This document shows, piece after piece, positions 9,312 to 20,511 of a stretch of DNA of 32,220 bases. The notes below the pieces were generated by a model. The model had not been told where the DNA came from. It made no database searches and worked only from the letters and a program-made list of their open reading frames with translations. Both the position numbers and the translations under genes were made by a program. The first letter of the stretch is position 1. Each line of letters opens with the position of its first letter. Source of the DNA: Spirochaetota bacterium (lineage in GTDB: Bacteria > Spirochaetota > Spirochaetia > Treponematales > UBA12059); contig JADFDI010000017.1 in assembly GCA_018262985.1 (NCBI GenBank), positions 1 through 32,220 of the forward strand. Direction: 5' to 3'.

Positions 9312-11072
9312 GTGTCGTACGCCCTCATCGTCACCACCCTCTTTCTCGCGTTGAACCTCCTCGCCGGCCTCCTCAAGGGCGGCGCCGCCCCCGCCTCCGC
9401 GACGCCCGGCGAGCGCTTCGCCTCCGGCGGCCGCGGCTTCGGCGGCCTCGCGCTTTTCGCCACCCTCGCCGCCACGAATTTTTCCGCCTACACGGTGTTC
9501 GGGCTCTCCGGCGCGGGCTTCAGGCTCGGCTGGGCCTGGTACCCGGCCATGGGCTTCGGCACGGGCCTCATGGCCCTCTCCTTCCTCGCCGTCGGCCTGC
9601 CCGCGCGCCGCTTCGCCCGCGAGCGCGGCTGGAGGACGCAGGGCGCCCTCGTCGCGGGCCGCCTCGGCTCGCCCGCGCTCGGGAAGGCCCTGTCGCTCTT
9701 CCTCCTCGTCCTCACCGTGCCCTATCTGGCGGCGCAGGGCATCGCGGCGGGACGGCTCCTCGAGTCGGCGCTCGGCCTGCCCTACGCGGCGGGGTCGGCG
9801 CTCATCCTCGGCGTCGCGACGGCCTACGTGCTCGCGGGCGGCATGCGCGCGGTGGTGCGCACGGACGTCCTCCAGCTCGGCGTGCTGGCGGCCGTCGTGG
9901 CGGCCGCCTTTTTCGTGGTCGCGCGCGTGGGGGGCGGGCTCGAGGCGGTCTCGCGAGTCCTCGACGCGGAGAAGCCGGCCCTGCTCTCGACGGAGGGCGA
10001 CGGCGCCGGCTTCGGCGCGCTCGCGGGCACCTGGCTCCTCTGGCTGCTCGCCGACCCCATGTTCCCCCAGCTCTTCCACCGTTTCGGCGTCGCGAAGGAC
10101 GAGAGGGCGCTCCGCGTCTCCGCCGCCCTCTACCCGCTCGCCACTTCGTTCGTGTTCCTCTTCCCGGTTGCCGCGGGCGTGGTGGGCGCGGCCCTGCTGC
10201 CGGGCCTCGACGCCAAGGGCGCCGAGAACGTGTTCCATTCGCTCGCCCGTTCGGCCGGCGGCGAGACGCTCGGCGCGCTCTTCGTGGTCGGCGCCCTCGC
10301 GGCCCTGCTCTCGACGCTCGACAGCCAGCTTCTCGCCGTGGCTTCCATCGTCGTCGAGGACTTCATGCCGCGGAGGAAGTCAAAGAGCGCGGCGTACCGA
10401 GTGGTCGCAGCGCTCGCGGCCCTGGCCGCCTGGCTCGTCTCGCTCGACCCGCCCGCCTCGATCCTCGACTTCCTGAACCGCGCGGCTTTTCCGGGCTATG
10501 CGGCCGCCGCCCCGGTCGTGCTGCTCGCGCTCTACGCGCCGCGGTGGGGCGCCGCGCCCGCCCGGGCGGCGCTCGCCTCCGGGGCCGCCCTCGTGGCGCT
10601 CGAGGCGTTCGGCCTCTTCGTCCCGCCCTTGCCCGCCGCGGTCTTCAACCTGCTCGCGCAGGGCCTCGCGGTCGCGGCGACGGCCGGGGCGCTCTCGTTC
10701 GCCCGGCGCTTCCGGCCGCTTCCGGGGAACGCCGAGGTCGGCGCCCGTCTTGGAGCGTCCGGTGGTGGTGCGACCGGCGCCATGGCGCCAGGCGCCGGAG
10801 AGCCCGCCGCGGTAGCGCCGGTCCCGGGTCTCCCTGAGGCGCCGGTCCGGCTTTTCGAGCACCTCGCGCCGCTGACCCTCGCGCGCGTCGCCCTCGTGGT
10901 CGCGGCCGCGCTCGCCGTCCGCTTGCTGCCCTGGCCCCCGACGCGCTTCGCGGGACTGCCCGTCTGGGTGTGGGCTTGGGTGGCGCTCGGGGGATTGCTC
11001 GCGGGGGCGCTCGCGCCGTCGCTCAGCCCTTCCTCGACGCTTCGTACTCCGCCACCCACTCCTCGACGCTGA
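9312..11072 (+). CDS. Sodium/solute symporter family (SSS) transporter
   Basis: A 586-residue polytopic membrane protein with about 12-14 hydrophobic segments. SSS features include ATNFSAYTVFGLSGAGF near residue 55, the unwound first core helix; a following helix with WYPAMGFGTG; YLAAQGIAAGRLLE; and AGGMRAVVRTDVLQ, close to the conserved GGM/TDxxQ motif of SSS carriers. ALLSTLDSQLLAVASIV near residue 340 holds the Ser/Thr-rich sodium-site helix. A Gly/Ala/Pro-rich insert near residues 485-520 precedes the last helices. The substrate cannot be told. The start is GTG, with AAAAGG from a repeat copy as its likely binding site. The 3' end overlaps the converging DUF1801 gene by 50 bp. Confidence 0.88.
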   Translation: MSYALIVTTLFLALNLLAGLLKGGAAPASATPGERFASGGRGFGGLALFATLAATNFSAYTVFGLSGAGFRLGWAWYPAMGFGTGLMALSFLAVGLPARRFARERGWRTQGALVAGRLGSPALGKALSLFLLVLTVPYLAAQGIAAGRLLESALGLPYAAGSALILGVATAYVLAGGMRAVVRTDVLQLGVLAAVVAAAFFVVARVGGGLEAVSRVLDAEKPALLSTEGDGAGFGALAGTWLLWLLADPMFPQLFHRFGVAKDERALRVSAALYPLATSFVFLFPVAAGVVGAALLPGLDAKGAENVFHSLARSAGGETLGALFVVGALAALLSTLDSQLLAVASIVVEDFMPRRKSKSAAYRVVAALAALAAWLVSLDPPASILDFLNRAAFPGYAAAAPVVLLALYAPRWGAAPARAALASGAALVALEAFGLFVPPLPAAVFNLLAQGLAVAATAGALSFARRFRPLPGNAEVGARLGASGGGATGAMAPGAGEPAAVAPVPGLPEAPVRLFEHLAPLTLARVALVVAAALAVRLLPWPPTRFAGLPVWVWAWVALGGLLAGALAPSLSPSSTLRTPPPTPRR

Positions 11073-11469
11073 AGAGCCGGCAGCTCCGGCCTATCACGTC
11101 GAGGGGGAGCTCGTCCGGGTTCATGAAGCGGGCGCAGCTTTTGCCCAGGTCGGGCTTGCGCCTGAAGCTCTTGGCCGCCCAGTCGCGGACGAAGGCCTCG
11201 CGCGCTTCCGCGCGGGCGTAGAGCCCGAGGTGGTAGAAGGCGAGGTGGCGCTTCTGCGCCGCTATCGAGAGGTAGGGCAGCGGAATTTTCGGGTCGCCCA
11301 GGTAGCCCGCGGGATAGCGTGAAAGCGGCACCGCCCAGGTGGGCATGCCCCAGAGGACGCGTTCCTCGTAACCGTCGGGGACGTTCTCCCGGACGCAGGC
11401 CAGCAGGGCCGAGAAGCCCGCGCGCCAGCTTTCGTCCACGGCGGCGGCGTAGTCGTCGATCTCGTTCAT
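11023..11469 (-). CDS. DUF1801 domain protein
   Basis: A 148-residue soluble protein of the DUF1801 (YdhG-like) fold. Recognisable elements are RENVPDGYEERVLWGMPTWAVP near residues 28-49, YLSIAAQKRHLAFYHLGLY, KPDLGKSCARFM and LPLDVIGRSCRLFSVEEWVAEYE. The biochemical role of this family is not known. The start at 11469 has GGGAG upstream. Its last 50 bp overlap the end of the symporter gene, tail to tail. Confidence 0.85.
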   Translation of the reverse strand: MNEIDDYAAAVDESWRAGFSALLACVRENVPDGYEERVLWGMPTWAVPLSRYPAGYLGDPKIPLPYLSIAAQKRHLAFYHLGLYARAEAREAFVRDWAAKSFRRKPDLGKSCARFMNPDELPLDVIGRSCRLFSVEEWVAEYEASRKG

Positions 11470-11524
11470 AGAAGGCTCCCTGCGCGTCGCGCGGAATCGC
11501 GCGGAATCGGGCGGGGATGGAAGA

Positions 11525-11599
11525 GCCCGAGAAGGAAGGGCGCGACGGCGCTCGGCGCCATCGCGGCGACGAAGGGCCCCGGGCCTTTCGTCGATCGCC
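11525..11599 (-). repeat. Double-hairpin repeat, copy A
   Basis: A 75-bp unit between the DUF1801 and HATPase-HDOD genes. Read on the minus strand it matches 18169-18244 at all but about seven positions plus one indel. It folds into two adjacent hairpins: one built on CGACGAAAGGCCC with its near-complement, and one on GCGATGGCG / CGCCGTCGC, with one wobble pair. The 11470-11673 spacer otherwise holds only the palindrome CGGACCGGTCCG (near 11656) and no gene. Confidence 0.85.
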
Positions 11600-11673
11600 G
11601 GGATGATCTTCCACGGACCGCATGGCTTGACCTTGTCGCCATCTTTCCTCTCGGACCGGTCCGGTTCCCGCGG

Positions 11674-13194
11674 CTATTCCTTCCGCGCCGGCTCTCGCAG
11701 CATCGAGGCTTCGCGCACGAAGCCCTGCTGGAACTGCTCGGCGGCCTTGCGGAACTGCGCCTCGGACAGCATGCCGAAGTCCTGCAGCACGAGCGGCTCG
11801 ATCTGGTTCCAGGCCACGTCGCCGCGCTCGTAGTCGCAGATGATGTTGGCCAGGTACACGCAGAAAACCACGTCCTTGTGGTCGGTGGTCATGAGGGCCG
11901 GTTCGTGGTGGTAGCGGATGGCGGCCACGAGGCTCTCGGGGAAGTTCCACTTCTCCGCGATGCGCGCGCCGATCTCGGCGTGGCTCATGCCGCCCGCGAG
12001 GTCCTCGAAGGTCTGCACGGGGATGTTCTTCGAGACGCAGAATTGGCGCAGGCGGTCGAGCAGCTCGGGGTGGACGTTCGAGAAGACGATCTTGCCCATG
12101 TCGTGGAGCATGCCCCCCACGTACACGTCGTCGGAGAGCGCGCGGTTCCCCGGCTTGAAGTTCTTGGCGATGTTGTAGGCGTAGTACGCGCAGCGGTACG
12201 AGTGGTCCCAGAGCGACTTCTTGTGCTCCTCGTTCTCGCCGAGGATCTTCTGGGCGCCGTACTGGAGCAGCTGGTTCTTGATGCCGCGGAGGCCCACCAG
12301 CTTGACCGCGTCGACGATGTTGTCCACGCGCCGCGGCAGCATGTACTGCGCGGAGTTGACGATCTTGAGGAGGTCGGCGGTCAGCGCGGGGTCGGTGGAG
12401 ATGTGCCGCGCGATGTCGATCATCTCGCTCTTGGGGTCGGCGATGAGGCGCTGCACCACCACGATGTTCTCGGGGAACTGCGGCAGGCTGGTGATCTGCT
12501 TGACGATCTCGTCGGTCAGCACCGAGAGGCTCTCGATCTTGGTGGCTTCGACCGGCACGGTGATGCGGGCCAGGGTCTCGCCGTTCTCGGCGCGGATGTC
12601 GAAGCAGTCCTCGTCGAGGCCGATCTTCTTGAGCATGAGGACGAGGATGACGAGGCCGAGGCCGGCGCCCTCGGAGGGGTCGATGACCTGCTGGAGGGCC
12701 TCCTCGAGGCTCGTGTACTTGCGCGAGCGGGCCAGCTTGTCGTGGACGCGGACGAACTCGGTCTTGGTCATCTGCACGTTGTTCCGGACCTCGAGGGCGA
12801 TGGTGGAGCCCCGCGCCTGGAACATGATCTTGACGTAGTAGCCCTTCTCCTTCTGCTTGGCCAGGTAGAAGTTGATGTTGTCGAGGGTGTCGGACTTGAA
12901 GGCCTGCATGCCCTCCTCGTAGTCCTTGGCGTTCTCGATGTCGAGGCCGCGGGTGTCGAAGTAGACGCGCTTGGTGTTGGCCTTCTTGGCGTTCACCGCC
13001 AGCTCGCGCACGCAATAGACCAGGTAGTCCTTGAGCTTGCGCTGCCCGAGCTCCCCGAGGAAGACGTCGAGCACCTCCTCGACGTACACCTCGATCTCGT
13101 GGGGCAGGGTGTAGGTCGTGATCGTCAGGGGAATGGCGCTGTGCGCCGCCTTCTTGATCTTGGGGACGTCGACTACGAGTTCGGTGCCTGCCAT
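11674..13194 (-). CDS. HATPase-like plus HDOD domain regulatory protein
   Basis: A 506-residue cytoplasmic protein with two parts. Residues about 40-215 look like a histidine-kinase-type ATPase fold: Glu64-x3-Asn68 in ELAVNAKKAN resembles the N box and GAGLGLVIL (176-184) the second glycine box. There is no phosphoacceptor His domain, and the Asp of the first glycine box is missing (RNNV instead). Residues about 225-430 form an HDOD domain, with WDHSYRCA and MLHDMGK (His364-Asp365). HDOD proteins act in signalling without clear phosphodiesterase activity. Together they suggest a nucleotide-sensing regulator, perhaps anti-sigma-like. A promoter lies at 13242-13270, and GGAAGGA precedes the ATG. 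Confidence 0.85.
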   Translation of the reverse strand: MAGTELVVDVPKIKKAAHSAIPLTITTYTLPHEIEVYVEEVLDVFLGELGQRKLKDYLVYCVRELAVNAKKANTKRVYFDTRGLDIENAKDYEEGMQAFKSDTLDNINFYLAKQKEKGYYVKIMFQARGSTIALEVRNNVQMTKTEFVRVHDKLARSRKYTSLEEALQQVIDPSEGAGLGLVILVLMLKKIGLDEDCFDIRAENGETLARITVPVEATKIESLSVLTDEIVKQITSLPQFPENIVVVQRLIADPKSEMIDIARHISTDPALTADLLKIVNSAQYMLPRRVDNIVDAVKLVGLRGIKNQLLQYGAQKILGENEEHKKSLWDHSYRCAYYAYNIAKNFKPGNRALSDDVYVGGMLHDMGKIVFSNVHPELLDRLRQFCVSKNIPVQTFEDLAGGMSHAEIGARIAEKWNFPESLVAAIRYHHEPALMTTDHKDVVFCVYLANIICDYERGDVAWNQIEPLVLQDFGMLSEAQFRKAAEQFQQGFVREASMLREPARKE

Positions 13195-13241
13195 GTTGTT
13201 CCTTCCGTGACCGACTTTACGACTGATTCGTTGCCCTACGT

Positions 13242-13270
13242 ATAGTAAGCGGGATGCTCCCGGTTTTCAA
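13242..13270 (-). promoter_or_regulatory. Predicted promoter for the HATPase-HDOD gene
   Basis: On the minus strand: TTGAAA (13270-13265), a 17-base spacer and TACTAT (13247-13242). The leader would be about 40 bases. The HDOD gene can therefore be expressed apart from the upstream Lon-like gene. Confidence 0.6.
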
Positions 13271-13315
13271 AGGGAAACGTCGTCGGCCGGGCGTCCGCCG
13301 GGCCGGGGCCCGCGC

Positions 13316-15703
13316 TTATAGGTACTCCTTGGCTGCCTTGGCCATGCCCAGGAGCGCGGCCCGGACCCGGCCGTTGAAGCTGTCCGGGGGGAACTGCCCC
13401 CGCGAGTCCGGGGCGCCCGCTCCCATGCCGGACATGACCTCGATGGCCTCGTCGATGTCGCCGGCGGTCCAGACGGAGAATTCGCCCGCCTCGACGGCCT
13501 CGCGGAGCTCCCTCGAGAGCACCAGGTTGACCACGTTGGTCCGGGGGATCAGGACGCCCTGCTTGCCGGTGAAGCCCGAGCGCCGGCAGACGCGGAACCA
13601 GCCTTCCACCTTCTCGGCCACCCCGCCGACCGCCTGGGTCATGCCCCACTGGTTGAGCGAACCGGTCACGGCGATGTCCTGGCGGAGGGGCACGCCCGAA
13701 ATGGAGGAAAGCAGGGCCAGGACGGCCGCGCACGAGGCGGAGTCGCCCTCGACGCCGCCGTAGGACTGCTCGAAGCAGACGCCCGCGGTCACGAGGAGGG
13801 GGAAGTCGCGCGCGTAGCGGCTCCGGAGGAAGCCTTCCACGATGAGCACGGCCTTGTCGTAGATCTCGCCCGACAGGCCCGACTCGCCCTCGATGTTGAC
13901 CACGCCGGTCTCTCCGGGGCTGACCTGCGCCGAGATGACGACCGGCGTGCCGAAGGCGTAGAAGCCGCGGTCGCGCACGGCGAGTCCGTTGACGCGGCCG
14001 ACGGCGCCGCCCGAGATGTCGATGACTATCTCGCCCGCGGCGGCCGCGTCGGCGAATTTCTCCTCGGGCATGGAACCCATGCGGTCGCGGCCCGCCACCG
14101 CGAGCTCGACCGACTCGGCGTCCACCTCGGGCCGCCCCGCGCGACGGGCGCGCCAGCCCGCCTCGCGCACCAGGTCGGCTATGGCCGAGAATTTCGTCGA
14201 GAGCCGGTCCTTGCGGCCGGAGAGCTGCACCGCGCGCGCCATCACGGCGGCGACCGCGCCGTCGTCGAAGGGCGGCAGCTCCTCCTCCGCGGCGATCTTC
14301 CGGACGAAGGCGACGTACTGCCTCAAGGCCGCGTCGTCCGCCTGCATCGTGTCGTCCAGCTCGGCGACCACCTTGAAAAGCTTGCCGAAATCCGGGTCGC
14401 GCTCGTAGAGGAGGTCGTAGAGCGGGTCGGCGCCGATCATGATCACCTTGGCGTCGCAGGGAGCCGCCTCTGGCTTGGCCTGGGGGCCGCCCTGGACGAA
14501 GGGGCCCTCGCGGCCCTGGATCTCGAGGGTTTGGGTCTGGAGCACGCGCTTCAGGCGGTTCCAGACCTCCTCGTCCGCGGCCACGTCCTCGGCCCGGAGC
14601 ACCAGGAAGCCTCCGGCGGCCTTGAGCAGGGCGCCGGCGCGGATGCGCAGGTAAGCGGCCTTGTCGCCGGACTCGGCGCCCTCGATGGACCCGAACAGGT
14701 TGGCCCAGGTCGGGTGGGTCTCGAAGACGAGCGGCGGCCGCTTGGCGTCCCCGTTGTCCACCACGATGTTGAGGCCGTAGCGCGCGAGCGGCGAGGCCTT
14801 CCCGGGTTTCTTCGCTTCCTCGCCCTCGTGGCGGAAGAGGTAGATGTGCCTGAGCACGTCGGTCGAGAGTCCGTCGATCCAGGCGTGCACGGCCTCGCCG
14901 CCGGAGCGGTCGCGGAGGAAGGCGGCCTCGGCCATGACGTGGGGGCGGAGCGTCTCGTCCCGGAGCGCCTCGAGTTTCTCCTCGAGCTCCACGCGCCCGC
15001 GCCGGAGCTCGGTGAACAGTCGCTTCATCCGGTCCATGCGCTCGTAGTAGCGCGAGCGCAGGGCGTCGAAGTCCTCGAGCTTCATGGTGCCCGCCGCCAC
15101 GCGGGTCTGGAGCTCCTCGAAGCCGACCGGCTCGCCGTCGACCACGGCCACCAGGTCCGCGCTCGAGGTGCCCGTCTCGTCCTCCACCTGGAGCACGCGG
15201 AAGCCCTCGGCCGCGAGTCCTGCCTCGAAGGCGGCGAGGCGCTCGTTCTCCTCGGCGTCCCAGGCCGAGGCCAGCGCGGCCTGCCTGGCCTTGAAGTCGT
15301 CGCTCTCGAGCTGGAGGCGCACCAGCTTCTTCACGTTCTCGATGAAGCGGTGGAGGTCCTCCTTGAACAGGCGGGCACCGCCAGCGGGGAAGCTCAGCGC
15401 CACCGGCTCGTGCGGCCGGCGGAAGTTGAAGGCGAAGGCGACGTCGCGCAGCTGGAGCCTGGGCGGCTGGTAGCCGCGGATGGCCCTGAGCGCGGCCGTG
15501 CGCCGGCCGGTGCCCGGGGTGCCCGTCACGAAGACGTTGTACCCGCGCGCGCGGATCTCGATGCCCATTCGGAGGGCTTCCATGGCGCGGCCCTGCCCGA
15601 TGATCTCCTCGCCCCAGGCGGCGCCGTCGAGCCGCCGGACCTCCGGGGCCTTGATGCCGTAGGACAGCTCGGACGCGGGCAGGAGCAGCTTCTTCGGGGC
15701 CAT
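13316..15703 (-). CDS. Lon-like protease with degenerate ATPase motifs (LonC-like)
   Basis: A 795-residue Lon-related protein. The C-terminal domain is an intact Lon peptidase: Ser655 in GDSASCAAVL and Lys698 in VAEKVEGW, 43 residues apart as in E. coli Lon, with the preceding GxVNGLAV strand conserved. The N-terminal part has the AAA-type layout of the 'Lon-related putative ATP-dependent protease' family with a helical insert (about residues 110-300). Its Walker A reads GTPGTGRRT, with Arg67 where Lys is expected, and the putative Walker B (FLVLRAEDV) is weak. ATP hydrolysis may therefore be lost, as described for LonC. GGGAGGG is upstream. It starts 12 bases after the NodB-like gene stops, so the two are likely co-transcribed. 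Confidence 0.88.
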   Translation of the reverse strand: MAPKKLLLPASELSYGIKAPEVRRLDGAAWGEEIIGQGRAMEALRMGIEIRARGYNVFVTGTPGTGRRTAALRAIRGYQPPRLQLRDVAFAFNFRRPHEPVALSFPAGGARLFKEDLHRFIENVKKLVRLQLESDDFKARQAALASAWDAEENERLAAFEAGLAAEGFRVLQVEDETGTSSADLVAVVDGEPVGFEELQTRVAAGTMKLEDFDALRSRYYERMDRMKRLFTELRRGRVELEEKLEALRDETLRPHVMAEAAFLRDRSGGEAVHAWIDGLSTDVLRHIYLFRHEGEEAKKPGKASPLARYGLNIVVDNGDAKRPPLVFETHPTWANLFGSIEGAESGDKAAYLRIRAGALLKAAGGFLVLRAEDVAADEEVWNRLKRVLQTQTLEIQGREGPFVQGGPQAKPEAAPCDAKVIMIGADPLYDLLYERDPDFGKLFKVVAELDDTMQADDAALRQYVAFVRKIAAEEELPPFDDGAVAAVMARAVQLSGRKDRLSTKFSAIADLVREAGWRARRAGRPEVDAESVELAVAGRDRMGSMPEEKFADAAAAGEIVIDISGGAVGRVNGLAVRDRGFYAFGTPVVISAQVSPGETGVVNIEGESGLSGEIYDKAVLIVEGFLRSRYARDFPLLVTAGVCFEQSYGGVEGDSASCAAVLALLSSISGVPLRQDIAVTGSLNQWGMTQAVGGVAEKVEGWFRVCRRSGFTGKQGVLIPRTNVVNLVLSRELREAVEAGEFSVWTAGDIDEAIEVMSGMGAGAPDSRGQFPPDSFNGRVRAALLGMAKAAKEYL

Positions 15704-15715
15704 GCCTTCCCTCCC

Positions 15716-18031
15716 TTATTCGGCGTGCTCGACCAGGGTCGACACGGGAACGATCTCGTAGCCTTCCTCGAGCAGGGCGTTGACGAGCAGCGAAAGCTCC
15801 GCGAACAGGTAGTCGTCGCGGCCGCCCGGCGGCACGCCGATGCGGATCGGGATGATGGATCCGGGCTTCTTGCGCTCGATGACGCGCTCCACCAGGTCCG
15901 GGGCGCCGAGGTAAAGGCCGGGCACGAGCTTCTCCGTGGCCGGCACCCAGTCGAGCGGGTCGACGTCGCGGCCGATGTAGCGGTAGTTCATCCCGGCGGC
16001 CGCCTCGAGCGCGACCGTGCTGGTCGAGTACCAGGGCGTGTGCCAAAGCAGCGAGAGCTCCTTGCCGGTGGCCGCGAAGTACTCGTCCTCGGTGCGCGCC
16101 AGGCCGCGCTGCACGAATTCCTCGTCGGCGCGGAAGCGGGCGTCGGTCGGGTCGTAGGTGGTGAAGAACATGTTGCCGACCTCGTGGCCGCTCTCCGCGA
16201 CGAGCCGGGTGGCGCCGGGGTTCCGGCGGATGAATTCGCCGTTCAGGAAGAAGGTGGCGCGGATGCCGAACTCCGCGAGGGTGTCGAGCACGCCCGCCAG
16301 GCCCGTCGCGTCGTCGTAGGCGTTGAACACGAGCGCCACCTCGCGGCGGCGGATGCGCGAGCCGTGTTCGAAGGCGAGGCCCTTGAGCTTCTCCTCGGCG
16401 GCCGGGAAGGGATCCCAGGCGGTGTCCGGGCGCTCGATGAGCGAGCGCGTGCCGAGGCCCTTGATCGAGCGCACCATGACGGCGTTGCGGTACGAACCCG
16501 AGTCGAGCTCGTCGAGGTAGACGCGCCAGGCGGCGCTCCCCGTGGCCGGCGCCTTGGCGGAGTACGCGGCCGCCCTGGTCCAGGCCGTCCCGCCCTTCAC
16601 CCGTTCCCACGCGCCGCCCGAGGCTTCCACGGCCACGGCGCCCTCGGTCGAGGAGGACCAGCCGTAGCGCTCCGGCTGCGAGATGCCCACCAGGCGCCGG
16701 AGGCCCCCCGCTATCGGCGCGATTTCGATGCTGCGCTCGCCGGCCACGACGAGCTCGTGGTTGTTGAGCCAGATGGCGTGCAGGGTGCCGGGCGCGGCTA
16801 TCGTCCCGGCCACGGTCCAGTCGGAGTACTTCCGCACCGTCACGCCGTCGGGCCCGGCCAGCGCCACCTTGCTCATGTCGGGCGAAAGCGAGACGGTGAC
16901 GGCGTTGCCCGAGTCGAGCTTGCGGAAGGTCTGCGAGAGCCCGAGGTCCGTCGGGCTGGCCGGGGCCGACACGCGGTAGGCCGCCGAGACGCGCTTCCCC
17001 GCGTCGAGCGAGCTGGTGAAGATGGTCACCTGGTCGCTTTCGGGCCAGAGCACGGTGCGGATGGTGGTGTCGCCCTGCAGGAAGAGGTAGGGCAGGGCGC
17101 TGATCCGCGCCTCCCGGCCGTAGTCGTCCGGATCCAGGTAATAGAGGAAGAGGTTCCGCCCGCCCTTGCAGAGCAGGACCTTGCGGCCGTCGGGCGAAAT
17201 CCAGAACGAGTCGAAATTCGGGTCGAAGGGGAAGGGCATGGAGCCGACCATCGTGCCGATGGTGATGAGCCCCGCGTAGAGGGCCTGGGTGAAGAACTCT
17301 GCCGGCATGATCCGGTAGATCGAGCGTTCCTTGACCATGTAGAGGTAGCCGTCGGCGCCCCAGCGCAGGGCCTCGACGCGTCCGGCGCCGAGCAGGCGGT
17401 AGCCTTCCTCGATGACCCTGCCCGCGCGGTGCTGGTCGATGGAGTAGTAGTGGATGTTCCCGCCGCGCGAATAGACGAAGACTTCCGAGCCCGGCGCCCA
17501 GGCCGCCGGGAAGCGCTCCACCGAGAATTCCACGCGCTCGGCGACCACGGTCTCCTTCCCCGACGCCACCTCGAGCAGCACGAGGCGCCCGTAGGCCGCC
17601 GAGCTCGGGGCCAGGTAGAGCAGCCACTTGCCGTCCGGCGAGGGCCGCGAGGCCAGGAGCTTGCCCGACTGGGGCGAAGCCCCGCGCGCGAAGCTCGGGA
17701 AGCCCGGCACGGGTTGCAGGTCCGTCAGGTCGGCGCCGGTGCGGTAGACGCCGAGCCGGTTCTGCACCTGCAGCCTCCGTCCGTCGTCCACGAGCTGGAC
17801 GCGCTCGGGATAGAAGCTCAGCTGGCTGGTCGCGCCGCTCGCGAGCTCGGTCATGAACAGGGTCCGGAACGAACCGGAGCCGGGCAGGTCGACCGTGGCC
17901 GTGAAGAGCAGGCGCCCGTCCTCGGCCAGGTCCAGGCCGTCGAACGAAACCTCGGCGCCGAGCGGGGCCGCGGCCAGCATGAGGAGGAGGAGGGTCGTCG
18001 CGAGGGGCGGAATCGTGGCATTTCGCTTCAT
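15716..18031 (-). CDS. Exported beta-propeller protein with degenerate NodB-like domain
   Basis: A 771-residue protein with a signal peptide (MKRN, then a hydrophobic stretch, cleavage near PLGAEV). Residues about 25-540 carry repeated strand units of TolB/WD40-like propeller type (for example SPDGKWLLYLAP, SPDGRKVLLCKGG, SPDMSKVALAG). Residues 563-771 are a polysaccharide-deacetylase (NodB) fold: ALVFNAYDD, FGIRATFFLNGEFI, GHEVGN. Asp573-Asp574 are kept, but both metal-binding His of the HxxxH motif are replaced (Met621, Thr625), so deacetylase activity is doubtful. The ATG at 18031 has AAGGA seven bases upstream and starts the signal peptide; an in-frame ATG at 18313 would add 94 unsupported residues through a repeat. 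Confidence 0.82.
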   Translation of the reverse strand: MKRNATIPPLATTLLLLMLAAAPLGAEVSFDGLDLAEDGRLLFTATVDLPGSGSFRTLFMTELASGATSQLSFYPERVQLVDDGRRLQVQNRLGVYRTGADLTDLQPVPGFPSFARGASPQSGKLLASRPSPDGKWLLYLAPSSAAYGRLVLLEVASGKETVVAERVEFSVERFPAAWAPGSEVFVYSRGGNIHYYSIDQHRAGRVIEEGYRLLGAGRVEALRWGADGYLYMVKERSIYRIMPAEFFTQALYAGLITIGTMVGSMPFPFDPNFDSFWISPDGRKVLLCKGGRNLFLYYLDPDDYGREARISALPYLFLQGDTTIRTVLWPESDQVTIFTSSLDAGKRVSAAYRVSAPASPTDLGLSQTFRKLDSGNAVTVSLSPDMSKVALAGPDGVTVRKYSDWTVAGTIAAPGTLHAIWLNNHELVVAGERSIEIAPIAGGLRRLVGISQPERYGWSSSTEGAVAVEASGGAWERVKGGTAWTRAAAYSAKAPATGSAAWRVYLDELDSGSYRNAVMVRSIKGLGTRSLIERPDTAWDPFPAAEEKLKGLAFEHGSRIRRREVALVFNAYDDATGLAGVLDTLAEFGIRATFFLNGEFIRRNPGATRLVAESGHEVGNMFFTTYDPTDARFRADEEFVQRGLARTEDEYFAATGKELSLLWHTPWYSTSTVALEAAAGMNYRYIGRDVDPLDWVPATEKLVPGLYLGAPDLVERVIERKKPGSIIPIRIGVPPGGRDDYLFAELSLLVNALLEEGYEIVPVSTLVEHAE

Positions 18032-18168
18032 TGGTGGTCCTTCGTTCCATTGTCGGCGCCGATCCGCGGACTGTAAAGCGACGCTCTCGTCCGGAACCGC
18101 GACCGGATCCCGTCCGGGAAGGAAGGGAGCCGTCACGTCCAGTTGTACCTTCCGGGGAAGGTAATACT

Positions 18169-18244
18169 GGTGATCGACGAAAGGCCCCGGGGCCTTTCGT
18201 CGCCGCGATGGCGCCGCGAGCCATCGCGCCCTTCCTTCCCGGGC
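18169..18244 (+). repeat. Double-hairpin repeat, copy B
   Basis: Contains a perfect 28-bp palindrome (18175-18202, half-site CGACGAAAGGCCCC) and a second hairpin (18205-18212 with 18220-18227, GCGATGGC/GCCATCGC). It is matched on the opposite strand by 11525-11599. It lies between divergent genes (18031 minus, 18592 plus). Confidence 0.88.
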
Positions 18245-18277
18245 CCATCCATCCCCGGTTTTTCCCTGCACGGGCGC

Positions 18278-18307
18278 TTGACACGTTCCGAAGGGCGGCA
18301 CTAGAGT
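18278..18307 (+). promoter_or_regulatory. Strong promoter upstream of the short ORF and ABC exporter
   Basis: TTGACA (18278-18283), an 18-base spacer and TAGAGT (18302-18307). The bases from CGCTTGACACGTTC through the same 18-base spacing to TAGAGT are shared with the tRNA-Thr promoter at 24509, so this looks like a strong, stable-RNA-type promoter. Start is expected near 18314. Confidence 0.75.
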
Positions 18308-18337: not shown

Positions 18338-18403
18338 ATGGTAACGAGCAACGCAGTTGCGGCAACCGCGCCCTCCCGGACGAAGGCCCGCCTGGAATCG
18401 TAG
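18338..18403 (+). CDS. Possible 21-residue leader peptide ORF
   Basis: ATG at 18338, eight bases after GAGGGGG and about 24 bases after the predicted start of transcription, opens a 21-codon frame ending in TAG. The peptide begins MVTSNAVAATAP and ends with basic residues (TKARLES). There is no run of one amino acid that would suggest classical attenuation. Its placement next to a strong promoter and before an exporter operon is the only support. It could equally be the 5' part of a non-coding RNA. Confidence 0.35.
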   Translation: MVTSNAVAATAPSRTKARLES

Positions 18404-18591: not shown

Positions 18592-20511
18592 ATGATTTCT
18601 GAAGCGAAGAAAACGAAGCCACTCGTCCACCTGTTCCGGGCCCTGCGCGGCTCTCGCCTCCTCTTCTCCGGGGCCGTCCTGGCCATACTCCTGCAGGCCG
18701 CGGTATCGCTCGTCGACCCGCTCGTCCTGCGCTTCGTGCTCGACTCCGTCATCGGCGGCCGGGAGAGCGACGCGCCCGCCTGGGTGATGGGCCTCGTCGA
18801 CCGGCTCGGCGGAATGTCCGCCCTGGCCCGCTCGATCTGGATCTGCGCCCTCGTCTTCGTGGCCGCGGGCTTGGTCAGCGCCGTCCTCATGTTCCTGCGC
18901 GGCGCCCTCGCGGGCGTCGCCGCGGAGCGCGCCACCAAGCGTCTTCGCGACGCGCTCCACGCGCGCATCCTCGACCTGCCCTACCGCTACTTCGGAGAGG
19001 CTTCGTCCGGCGATCTCGTGCAGCGCTGCACCAGCGACGTGGACACGGTCAAGCGCTTCCTGGCCACCCAGTTCGTGGACGTGGCGCGGGCGGTCGCCCT
19101 GCTCGTCCTGACGCTCGCGGCCATGCTCGGCGTCGACCGTCGCATGACCCTGGCGGCCCTGCCCATCGTCCCGGGCATCTTCGCCTTCTCGTACCTGTTC
19201 TTCCGGAAGATCCAGAAGGCCTTCCAGGCCAGCGACGAGGCGGAGGCCGCCCTGAGCCAGCTCGTGCAGGAAAACCTGCACGGCGTCCGCGTGGTGCGCG
19301 CCTTCGCGCGCGAGGACTTCGAGCTCGGCCGCCTCTCCGAGGGCAACCGGCGCTACACCGACGAGGTGAAGAAGCTCATCGACCTCTTCGGCTGGTACTG
19401 GTCCATCTCCGGCTGGATGTGCATGGCCCAGACCGGCCTCGTGCTCGCGGTCGGCGCCACGCTCGCCTCGAAGGGCCTCGTCAGCCCGGGCACTCTCGTG
19501 GCCTTCTTCGCCTACGTGGGACGCCTGCTCTGGCCGGTGCGCCAGCTCGGCCGCACCCTGACCGACCTCGGCAAGACCGTGGTGGCCATGAAGCGCCTCG
19601 GCGAGATCCTCGACGAACCGGACGAGTACGGCGACGACGGCGCCCTCGAGGCCCGCGGGCGCGGCCGCATCGAGTTCGACCGCGTGTCCTTCGCCTTCGC
19701 CCAGGGGCAGAGCGTGCTCGACGGGGTCAGTTTCACCGTGGAGCCCGGCGAGACCGTGGCCATCCTGGCGCGGACCGGGGGCGGCAAGTCCACCCTGGCC
19801 CACCTGCTCGGCCGGCTCATGGAGCCGGACTCGGGCGCCATCAGGCTCGACGGCGTCGACCTGCGCGAGGTCTCGAAGCGCTCGCTCCGCGACCGGATCG
19901 GCATCGTGCTCCAGGAGCCCTTCCTGTTCTCCGACACCCTGCGCGGGAACGTGTCGCTCGGGCTCGGAGAGGGCGAGTCCCTCGACGACTCGGCCCTCGC
20001 GGCGCTCGCCGCGAATTCCGGGTTGAGCACCACGGTGGCGGGTTTCCCCGACGGCTGGGAAACCAAGGTCGGCGAGGAAGGGGTGACCCTTTCCGGCGGA
20101 CAAAGGCAGCGGGCGGCCATAGCCCGGGCTTTGGCCCGGAAGCCGGACGTCCTCGTGCTCGACGACGCCCTCTCGGCCCTCGACACAGAGACGGACTCGG
20201 CCGTGCGCGCGGCCTTGGCGGCCTCGAACGGGGGTCGGGGAGTCACGACCATCGTGGTTTCCCACCGGATGACCACCCTGGCCGCCGCCGACCGTATCGT
20301 GGTGCTCGAAAAAGGCCGCGTCGCCGCCATCGGCACGCACGAGGAACTGCTGGCCCGTCCCGGGCTCTACCGCCGCGTCTGGGAGATCCAGGCCGGCCTG
20401 GAACAGGATTTCGCCGCGGCGGACGCGTCCGCCGAGGAGGAATCGCCGTCATCGGCCGACGCGCCCGTCCTCGGGGCCGCGGACGCCGAGCCCGAGGCCG
20501 TTTCGGCCTGA
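18592..20511 (+). CDS. ABC exporter half-transporter, degenerate-site subunit
   Basis: A 639-residue half-exporter with an N-terminal six-helix membrane domain (about residues 20-335) and a C-terminal nucleotide-binding domain. Walker A is ARTGGGKST (Lys399). The signature is a canonical LSGGQ (500-504). Walker B reads LVLDD, with Asp525 in place of the catalytic Glu, followed by ALSALD. The H-loop is VVSHRM. Asp at this position is typical of the subunit carrying the non-catalytic site in heterodimeric exporters. The tail beyond residue 610 is acidic and Ala-rich. The substrate cannot be read; lipids, drugs or peptides are all possible. The ATG at 18592 has only a weak upstream purine stretch. 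Confidence 0.9.
   Translation: MISEAKKTKPLVHLFRALRGSRLLFSGAVLAILLQAAVSLVDPLVLRFVLDSVIGGRESDAPAWVMGLVDRLGGMSALARSIWICALVFVAAGLVSAVLMFLRGALAGVAAERATKRLRDALHARILDLPYRYFGEASSGDLVQRCTSDVDTVKRFLATQFVDVARAVALLVLTLAAMLGVDRRMTLAALPIVPGIFAFSYLFFRKIQKAFQASDEAEAALSQLVQENLHGVRVVRAFAREDFELGRLSEGNRRYTDEVKKLIDLFGWYWSISGWMCMAQTGLVLAVGATLASKGLVSPGTLVAFFAYVGRLLWPVRQLGRTLTDLGKTVVAMKRLGEILDEPDEYGDDGALEARGRGRIEFDRVSFAFAQGQSVLDGVSFTVEPGETVAILARTGGGKSTLAHLLGRLMEPDSGAIRLDGVDLREVSKRSLRDRIGIVLQEPFLFSDTLRGNVSLGLGEGESLDDSALAALAANSGLSTTVAGFPDGWETKVGEEGVTLSGGQRQRAAIARALARKPDVLVLDDALSALDTETDSAVRAALAASNGGRGVTTIVVSHRMTTLAAADRIVVLEKGRVAAIGTHEELLARPGLYRRVWEIQAGLEQDFAAADASAEEESPSSADAPVLGAADAEPEAVSA

Follow-up and report, generated by a model that had tools for sequence, protein, structure and literature searches.

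REP-type repeats have been studied mostly in Proteobacteria, together with RAYT enzymes. The BIME-2 elements of enterobacteria combine two distinct palindromes into mosaic, head-to-tail arrays of variable copy number, placed at the 3' ends of genes. MIRUs are tandem interspersed repeats found at the overlapping stop and start codons of co-directional genes, and they are not known to form strong double hairpins.

More specific descriptions exist for tagged REPs. Those carrying a GTAG or a CGTC tag lie downstream of genes and, where two genes converge, near the 3' end of each (Di Nocera et al. 2013, PMC3733652). The termini of GTAG REPs often provide a TAG stop codon, and around some tyrosine transposase genes the place of REPs is taken by terminal inverted repeats (TIRs) with a GGGGWSAS motif (PMC3733652). 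In E. coli, ribosomes stall at REPs that lie no more than 15 nt from a stop codon (2025 survey, PMC12306157).

The repeats described here, of which two copies (A and B) lie in the DNA stretch under study, constitute a real and abundant REP/BIME-like family in Spirochaetota. They share with GTAG REPs and REPINs the form of short GC-rich palindromes, present in tens of intergenic copies near the 3' ends of convergent or co-directional genes, with termini that frequently supply a TAG stop and dimers that fold separately or as one large hairpin. Unlike these, they have no conserved GTAG tag, do not flank Y1_Tnp genes, and have as their fixed unit two different hairpins about 2 nt apart; moreover, Spirochaetota is not among the phyla that PMC3733652 names for GTAG repeats. 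CGTC-tagged REPs are likewise palindromic, intergenic, dimer-forming and with no dedicated transposase known, but their CGTC tag, AT-starting 8-9-bp stem and CCA tail, compared by their description in PMC3733652, are absent from our alignment of the family (A4). As in BIME-2, the arrays are mosaics of two palindromes, variable in number and located at gene 3' ends, although the sequences differ and one hairpin arm is shared by the spirochaete units along an array. Copy B resembles a MITE, being an insert that bears TIRs and whose site is cleanly empty in sister species, whereas most family members are the core only, without the TIR part, and the target-site duplication of copy B is ambiguous. 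Finally, the tandem interspersed repeats fall precisely on the stop codons of neighbouring genes, as MIRUs do, but mostly at convergent genes, with TAG and with strong double hairpins.

The window, that is, the whole 32,220-nt stretch of DNA analysed, is the entire contig C8 of a 3.44-Mb, 22-contig genome (G000). An initial annotation had described in it a 75-bp repeat in two opposite copies, identical at about nine tenths of positions. A window-wide scan for inverted pairs bears this out: the longest and best of 78 pairs is 11512-11588 / 18181-18257 (pair I1; 77 nt, 88% complementary), the runner-up having 56 nt at 73%, and blastn in the same genome aligns copy A with copy B at 90% (E 2e-27). 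The repeat is real, but the unit is longer, about 190 nt, including the related left ends at 18083-18171 (copy B) and about 11600-11673 (copy A). Folding gives two adjacent hairpins in each copy, as annotated, and for both copies the sense running from hairpin 1 to hairpin 2 is the more stable one (copy B, plus strand, -49.9 kcal/mol, z -4.0; copy A, minus strand, -48.6 kcal/mol, z -2.7). The statement that the second stem stays paired despite changes is also true, but it is weak for A and B alone, which differ in hairpin 2 by a T-A to T-G wobble, on one side only. The only Rfam matches at gathering score in the window are tRNAs, none of them on copies A or B. Coordinates are collected in Table 1.

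Table 1. Features of copies A and B and of their neighbourhood in the window
Feature	Position	Strand	Basis
Copy B, whole inserted element, 187 nt, imperfect terminal inverted repeats	18083..18269	+	alignment to empty sites
Copy B left arm GTCCGGGAAGGAAGGG, pairs with 18229-18246	18112..18127	+	folding
Copy B variable extra hairpin CCAGT..ACTGG	18139..18170	+	folding
Copy B hairpin 1 CGACGAAAGGCCCC/GGGGCCTTTCGTCG	18175..18202	+	folding, model
Copy B hairpin 2 CGCGATGGC/GCCATCGCG	18204..18228	+	folding, model
Copy B right terminal repeat CCCTTCCTTCCCGGGCCCATCCATCCCCGGTTTTTCCCTGC	18229..18269	+	
Copy A, whole element, right boundary approximate, begins just past HDOD TAG (11674-11676)	11481..11673	-	sister-species alignment
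Copy A hairpin 1	11567..11593	-	
Copy A hairpin 2	11541..11565	-	
Copy A right arm CCCTTCCTTCTCGGG	11526..11540	-	
Copy A left terminal repeat GGAACCGGACCGG..CCGAGAGGAAAGATGG	11639..11668	-	
HDOD-domain gene, 506 aa, 3' UTR contains copy A	11674..13194	-	Pfam, gene call
DUF1801 gene, 148 aa, downstream of copy A	11023..11469	-	Pfam
Polysaccharide-deacetylase (NodB-type) gene, start divergent from copy B	15716..18031	-	Pfam, gene call
Sigma-70-like promoter TTGACA-18-TAGAGT, 8 nt past copy B insertion, conserved in G001 and G002	18278..18307	+	
ABC transporter gene downstream of copy B	18592..20511	+	Pfam

Behind the promoter of Table 1 lies a short ORF, MVTSNAVAATAPSRTKARLES* (18338-18403, plus strand), with about 190 nt between it and the ABC transporter gene. 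It is present in the sister species G001 and G002, and G008 and G004 have a diverged version of it at the corresponding position; it is a possible regulatory leader peptide.

In G000, blastn with copy B returned 54 matches, and a covariance model of the double hairpin (R1) returned 107 at E<=1 (best 8e-20, many below 1e-8), a count that is a lower bound because 150 of 17,766 first-look candidates were scored. The R1 matches merge into about 45 sites, and many full-length matches lie below 1e-6. According to alignment A4, the core is GATCG[A/C]CGAA-hairpin 1-GCC-hairpin 2, in fuller form GATCG[A/C]CGAA-x-TTCG[T/G]CG-CC-GCGA-y-TCGC, with highly variable stems; each unit has two different adjacent hairpins, GATCGACGAA..TTCGTC (hairpin 1) and GCGA..TCGC (hairpin 2). 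Tandem arrays comprise 2-7 units of 45-75 nt, an example on contig C16 having a 60-nt unit in 5.9 copies at 99% and others being 55-67-nt arrays, and their copy number varies among sister species.

The covariance-model search of relatives, a step proposed in the initial annotation, revealed a large family that is abundant in two genera. Because indels kept RNAalifold of A4 from recovering hairpin 2, the model used (R3) holds this hairpin as sequence only, and pair counts were taken from orthologue pairs instead. With R3, the window's own genus yielded 94, 53 and 28 copies in its three genomes, genus g9 yielded 44, 60 and 30, and each of the other genomes of the family and order 0 to 2. Matches at E 1e-5 occurred in 5 of 393 genomes of the phylum: two genera of one Spirochaetota family are rich in elements, which are almost absent elsewhere among these 393 genomes. 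A pattern scan of named genomes gave repeated matches in the Spirochaetota MAGs JAFGNN, JAKLEE, JAKLDN and JAEUJG, and single matches, chance-like in appearance, in other phyla. Among the g9 loci examined, no site was conserved across genera.

Copies fall into three contexts. Class a is the type seen in the window: past the core comes CCTTCCTTCCCGGGCCC, whose pairing partner CCGGGAAGGAAGG lies upstream; the same arms are found in a related hairpin family that lacks the core (model R2). In class b, the gene-linked type, hairpin 2 adjoins the stop codon of a convergent gene. In class c, the core is part of a longer repeat of about 300 nt; seven such copies (L051, L055, L059, L064, L097, L102 and L105) lie in a repeat about 70% similar, which has further palindromes such as GACGCGCGGAAACGC..GCGTTTCCGCGCGTC. 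A second dispersed hairpin family, CGTCCGGGAGRGAAGGGG..CCCCTTCTCTCCCGGGCCCTTCCATCCC, was observed at L067-L093 (for instance C15:368862-368932 and C2:56558-56627); it frequently begins a few nt past stop codons, and its arms are common to the window copies.

Position relative to gene ends, which the initial annotation had also singled out, was determined from genes called with a home-made codon model in the genome stretches around matches. At sites with both neighbours called, 22 are convergent, 16 tandem and 5 divergent (p 0.0008 for convergent versus divergent), and two matches only, both weak (E 0.008 and 0.3), are intragenic. Copy B, located between divergent genes, is an exception to the 3'-end placement.

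The question arises as to whether these copies move. At the site of copy B, G001 and G002 show GTAAAGCGACACGGGCGCTTGACA where the window has its 187 extra bases; the empty site in both reads GTAAAGCGAC^ACGGGCG, and the target-site duplication is ambiguous, 0-2 nt, with a possible AC dinucleotide only. The simplest reading is an insertion in the lineage of the window, a deletion in the ancestor of G001 and G002 being a possible alternative. Copy A is absent from G002, where 20 nt separate the HDOD stop from the next start, and in G001 its left half is kept and its right half deleted. In the window copies, a MITE-like element bearing TIRs encloses the core. Of 9 loci compared, about half have no element, or a decayed one, in sister species. 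None of the class b loci had an empty site that was perfectly clean and readable at both borders, and the arms differ among loci more than is usual for the ends of mobile elements.

Copies A and B do flank a block in the window, as had been annotated, made of the HDOD gene, a 795-aa ORF (a putative Lon according to the initial annotation) and the NodB-type deacetylase gene. This arrangement is coincidental, because the two genes bounding the block, HDOD and ABC transporter, keep the same spacing on one contig of G001, where copy B is absent and copy A truncated. A composite transposon with the two copies as its ends was ruled out on the same observation.

Class b copies have a particular relation to stop codons. 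In G000, their hairpin 2 begins 0-2 nt past the stop of the neighbouring gene, and this stop is TAG at 15 of 16 sites, versus 30 of 111 (27%) for the other called genes near elements (Fisher p 3.5e-7). Orthologues lacking the element end with other stops: the EF-G gene with TGA in G001 and with TAA, then an R2-type hairpin, in G002, after the same final residue; a 255-aa gene (L103) with TGA in both; and a glycosyltransferase-like gene with TGA in G002, the protein end being unchanged in the last two cases as well. Exceptions are the EAL locus of G001, which has TGA with the element, and the elementless-looking GNAT and SbcC loci of G001, which have TAG, possibly stemming from element remnants. 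In convergent pairs both ends of the element can be stops (TAG...CTA, 81-104 nt apart), and for single-unit elements one long hairpin is predicted, at -51 to -63 kcal/mol, with the stop codons paired at its base. The stop-flanked arrangement is also found in genus g9, at other loci. Capture of stop codons is supported for the gene-linked copies. For class b, duplication of a TA or CTAG target would fit a change from TAA to TAG, but not from TGA to TAG.

Two observations concern the same gene type. The EF-G stop is a single site adjoined by two repeat families, the class b element in G000 (L050) and the R2-type hairpin in G002 (L310). In G001, a long inverted repeat, AACCACGGAGACACGGAGGCACAGAG..CTCCGTGCCTCCGTGGTT, directly follows the stop codon of an EF-G-like gene (L309), and fragments of it are present in other intergenic regions.

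We then considered how stems evolve between sister species. Among 339 stem pairs in 16 orthologous comparisons, 307 are unchanged, 19 have changed on both sides and are still paired (about 0.7 expected under independence), 2 have changed on one side and are paired, and 11 are broken; substitution reaches 7.6% at paired versus 28% at unpaired sites. More than a dozen G000/G001 loci retain the element orthologously with such compensated changes. What keeps the stems paired from one species to the next may be selection, homogenisation of the arms through template switching, or a combination, and these are not separable here. The second process is documented for inverted-repeat arms (PMC8604942, PMC7202029), and the matching changes could be a mutational artefact altogether, template switching or gene conversion equalising the arms and leaving structure without function. 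We take this as a serious possibility, although we lean against it. At L104/L170 all three arm copies changed together, from CGCGAACGGCGC to CGTCAACGGCGC, and A-T to C-G switches recur at one stem position, as such a process would produce. However, it accounts for the pairing only, and leaves the preference for TAG, the placement at gene ends and the conserved GATCGACGAA block without explanation. Moreover, at L099/L164, where the stop codon lies within the stem, CGC TAG CGG became CGT TAA GGG with the partner arm changed too, so that codon meaning and a stop are preserved.

If selection maintains the stems, the elements might be stationary, vertically inherited 3'-UTR regulatory structures (mRNA stability or ribosome-stalling hairpins) rather than mobile ones. 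The orthologous retention just described would agree with this, as would the exact placement after stop codons and the NhaC, L103 and EF-G loci, in which the element separates the stop codon from a T-tract terminator. We nevertheless find this scenario rather doubtful, given the losses or absences in sister species mentioned above, the presence of another hairpin at the EF-G gene of G002, the precise empty site of copy B, between divergent genes, and the differences in array copy number between sisters.

That the family would be a GTAG-REP/RAYT member, a REPIN family mobilised by the Y1_Tnp (RAYT) enzymes of the genome, seems improbable. Six Y1_Tnp genes do exist in G000 (L031-L036: C1:58100, C6:40723, C16:110001, C18:90048, C19:120144 and C11:447520), and the TAG before the hairpin, the outward TAG ends, the 3'-end location and the supply of stops match GTAG REPs (PMC3733652). 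However, most of these genes are preceded by direct repeats of the GGGGACAGAGCT or GGGGTGTGTCCCC type, and in five of the six a TIRYT-like GCAAGCG motif stands a short distance before the start; the GGGGACAGAGCT-type repeats correspond to the TIRYT motif of PMC3733652, not to the double-hairpin core. None of the six loci is flanked by element copies, the nearest being one weak class c R1 match 332 nt away, and no transposase could be tied to the element family. Nor do the two co-occur across genomes: G017 (93% complete) has 30 elements and no Y1_Tnp match, whereas G008 and G009 have 5-6 Y1_Tnp genes and 0-2 elements. As to the tag itself, an unpaired GTAG is absent; TAG is present in class b only, not in classes a (the window copies) and c, and the base before it is mostly C, also A or G, varying by gene. 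The RAYT link put forward in the initial annotation is thus not retained, and the elements behave like REP/BIME but are not GTAG-REP/RAYT members.

A termination role, also put forward there, fares worst: Rho-independent (bidirectional) terminators, repetitive-looking through shared hairpins, would have strong GC hairpins at the 3' ends of mostly convergent genes as these elements do, but we hold this for very improbable because a T-tract follows neither hairpin in the aligned copies, the terminator scan passes over them and the NhaC, EF-G and 255-aa gene loci each have a classic T-tract terminator beyond the element, while the conserved GATCGACGAA/TTCGTCGCC and the genus restriction are unexpected of terminators.

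Taken together, we think it probable that the elements are non-autonomous palindromic repeats of uncultured high-GC Spirochaetota, making up a REP/BIME-like family at genus level that spreads and captures stop codons. The initial reading of a REP/BIME- or MITE-like intergenic family holds, with about 45 sites, arrays, a 3'-end bias, the empty site of copy B and compensatory changes; there are 107 matches instead of two copies, and 19 compensated pairs against about 0.7. Spread would proceed by insertion, as supported by the empty site of copy B, and by tandem amplification, as suggested by the arrays, and copies would build up at gene 3' ends because such positions are tolerated. In the commonest gene-linked form, the terminal arm starts with TAG and would become the stop of the neighbouring gene, or of both genes in a convergent pair; the single-unit form could then fold into the predicted long hairpin closed by two stop codons. 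Since the copies lack a T-tract and terminators are found beyond them, they are most likely transcribed 3'-UTR sequence, and because they are transcribed there, their hairpins most likely act as mRNA-end structures met by the terminating ribosome. Gene-linked copies may stall ribosomes, as E. coli REPs near stops do (PMC12306157). Such a 3'-UTR function cannot be general, because copy B stands between divergent genes.

A more specific version of this mobile family is tentative, and we would sooner doubt it than adopt it: insertion of the palindrome might be directed to stop codons, at gene ends that are often convergent and overlapping, so that its TAG...CTA termini replace the stops of both genes, leaving the proteins unchanged and a giant hairpin behind, with the two stops paired at its base. 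If true, stop-directed insertion would be a neutral-by-design strategy, with a direct hold on translation termination.

Described here are an abundant REP-like family in spirochaetes without a REP-flanked RAYT gene, one copy of which has an empty site, and stops that differ across sister species (TGA or TAA versus TAG) with the presence of the element. A caution follows for palindromes, in which compensatory changes may arise by arm homogenisation as well as by selection. With three sister genomes and dozens of orthologous sites, whether such repeats spread selfishly onto gene ends or are retained for the hairpins that they offer to terminating ribosomes becomes a question that can be asked.
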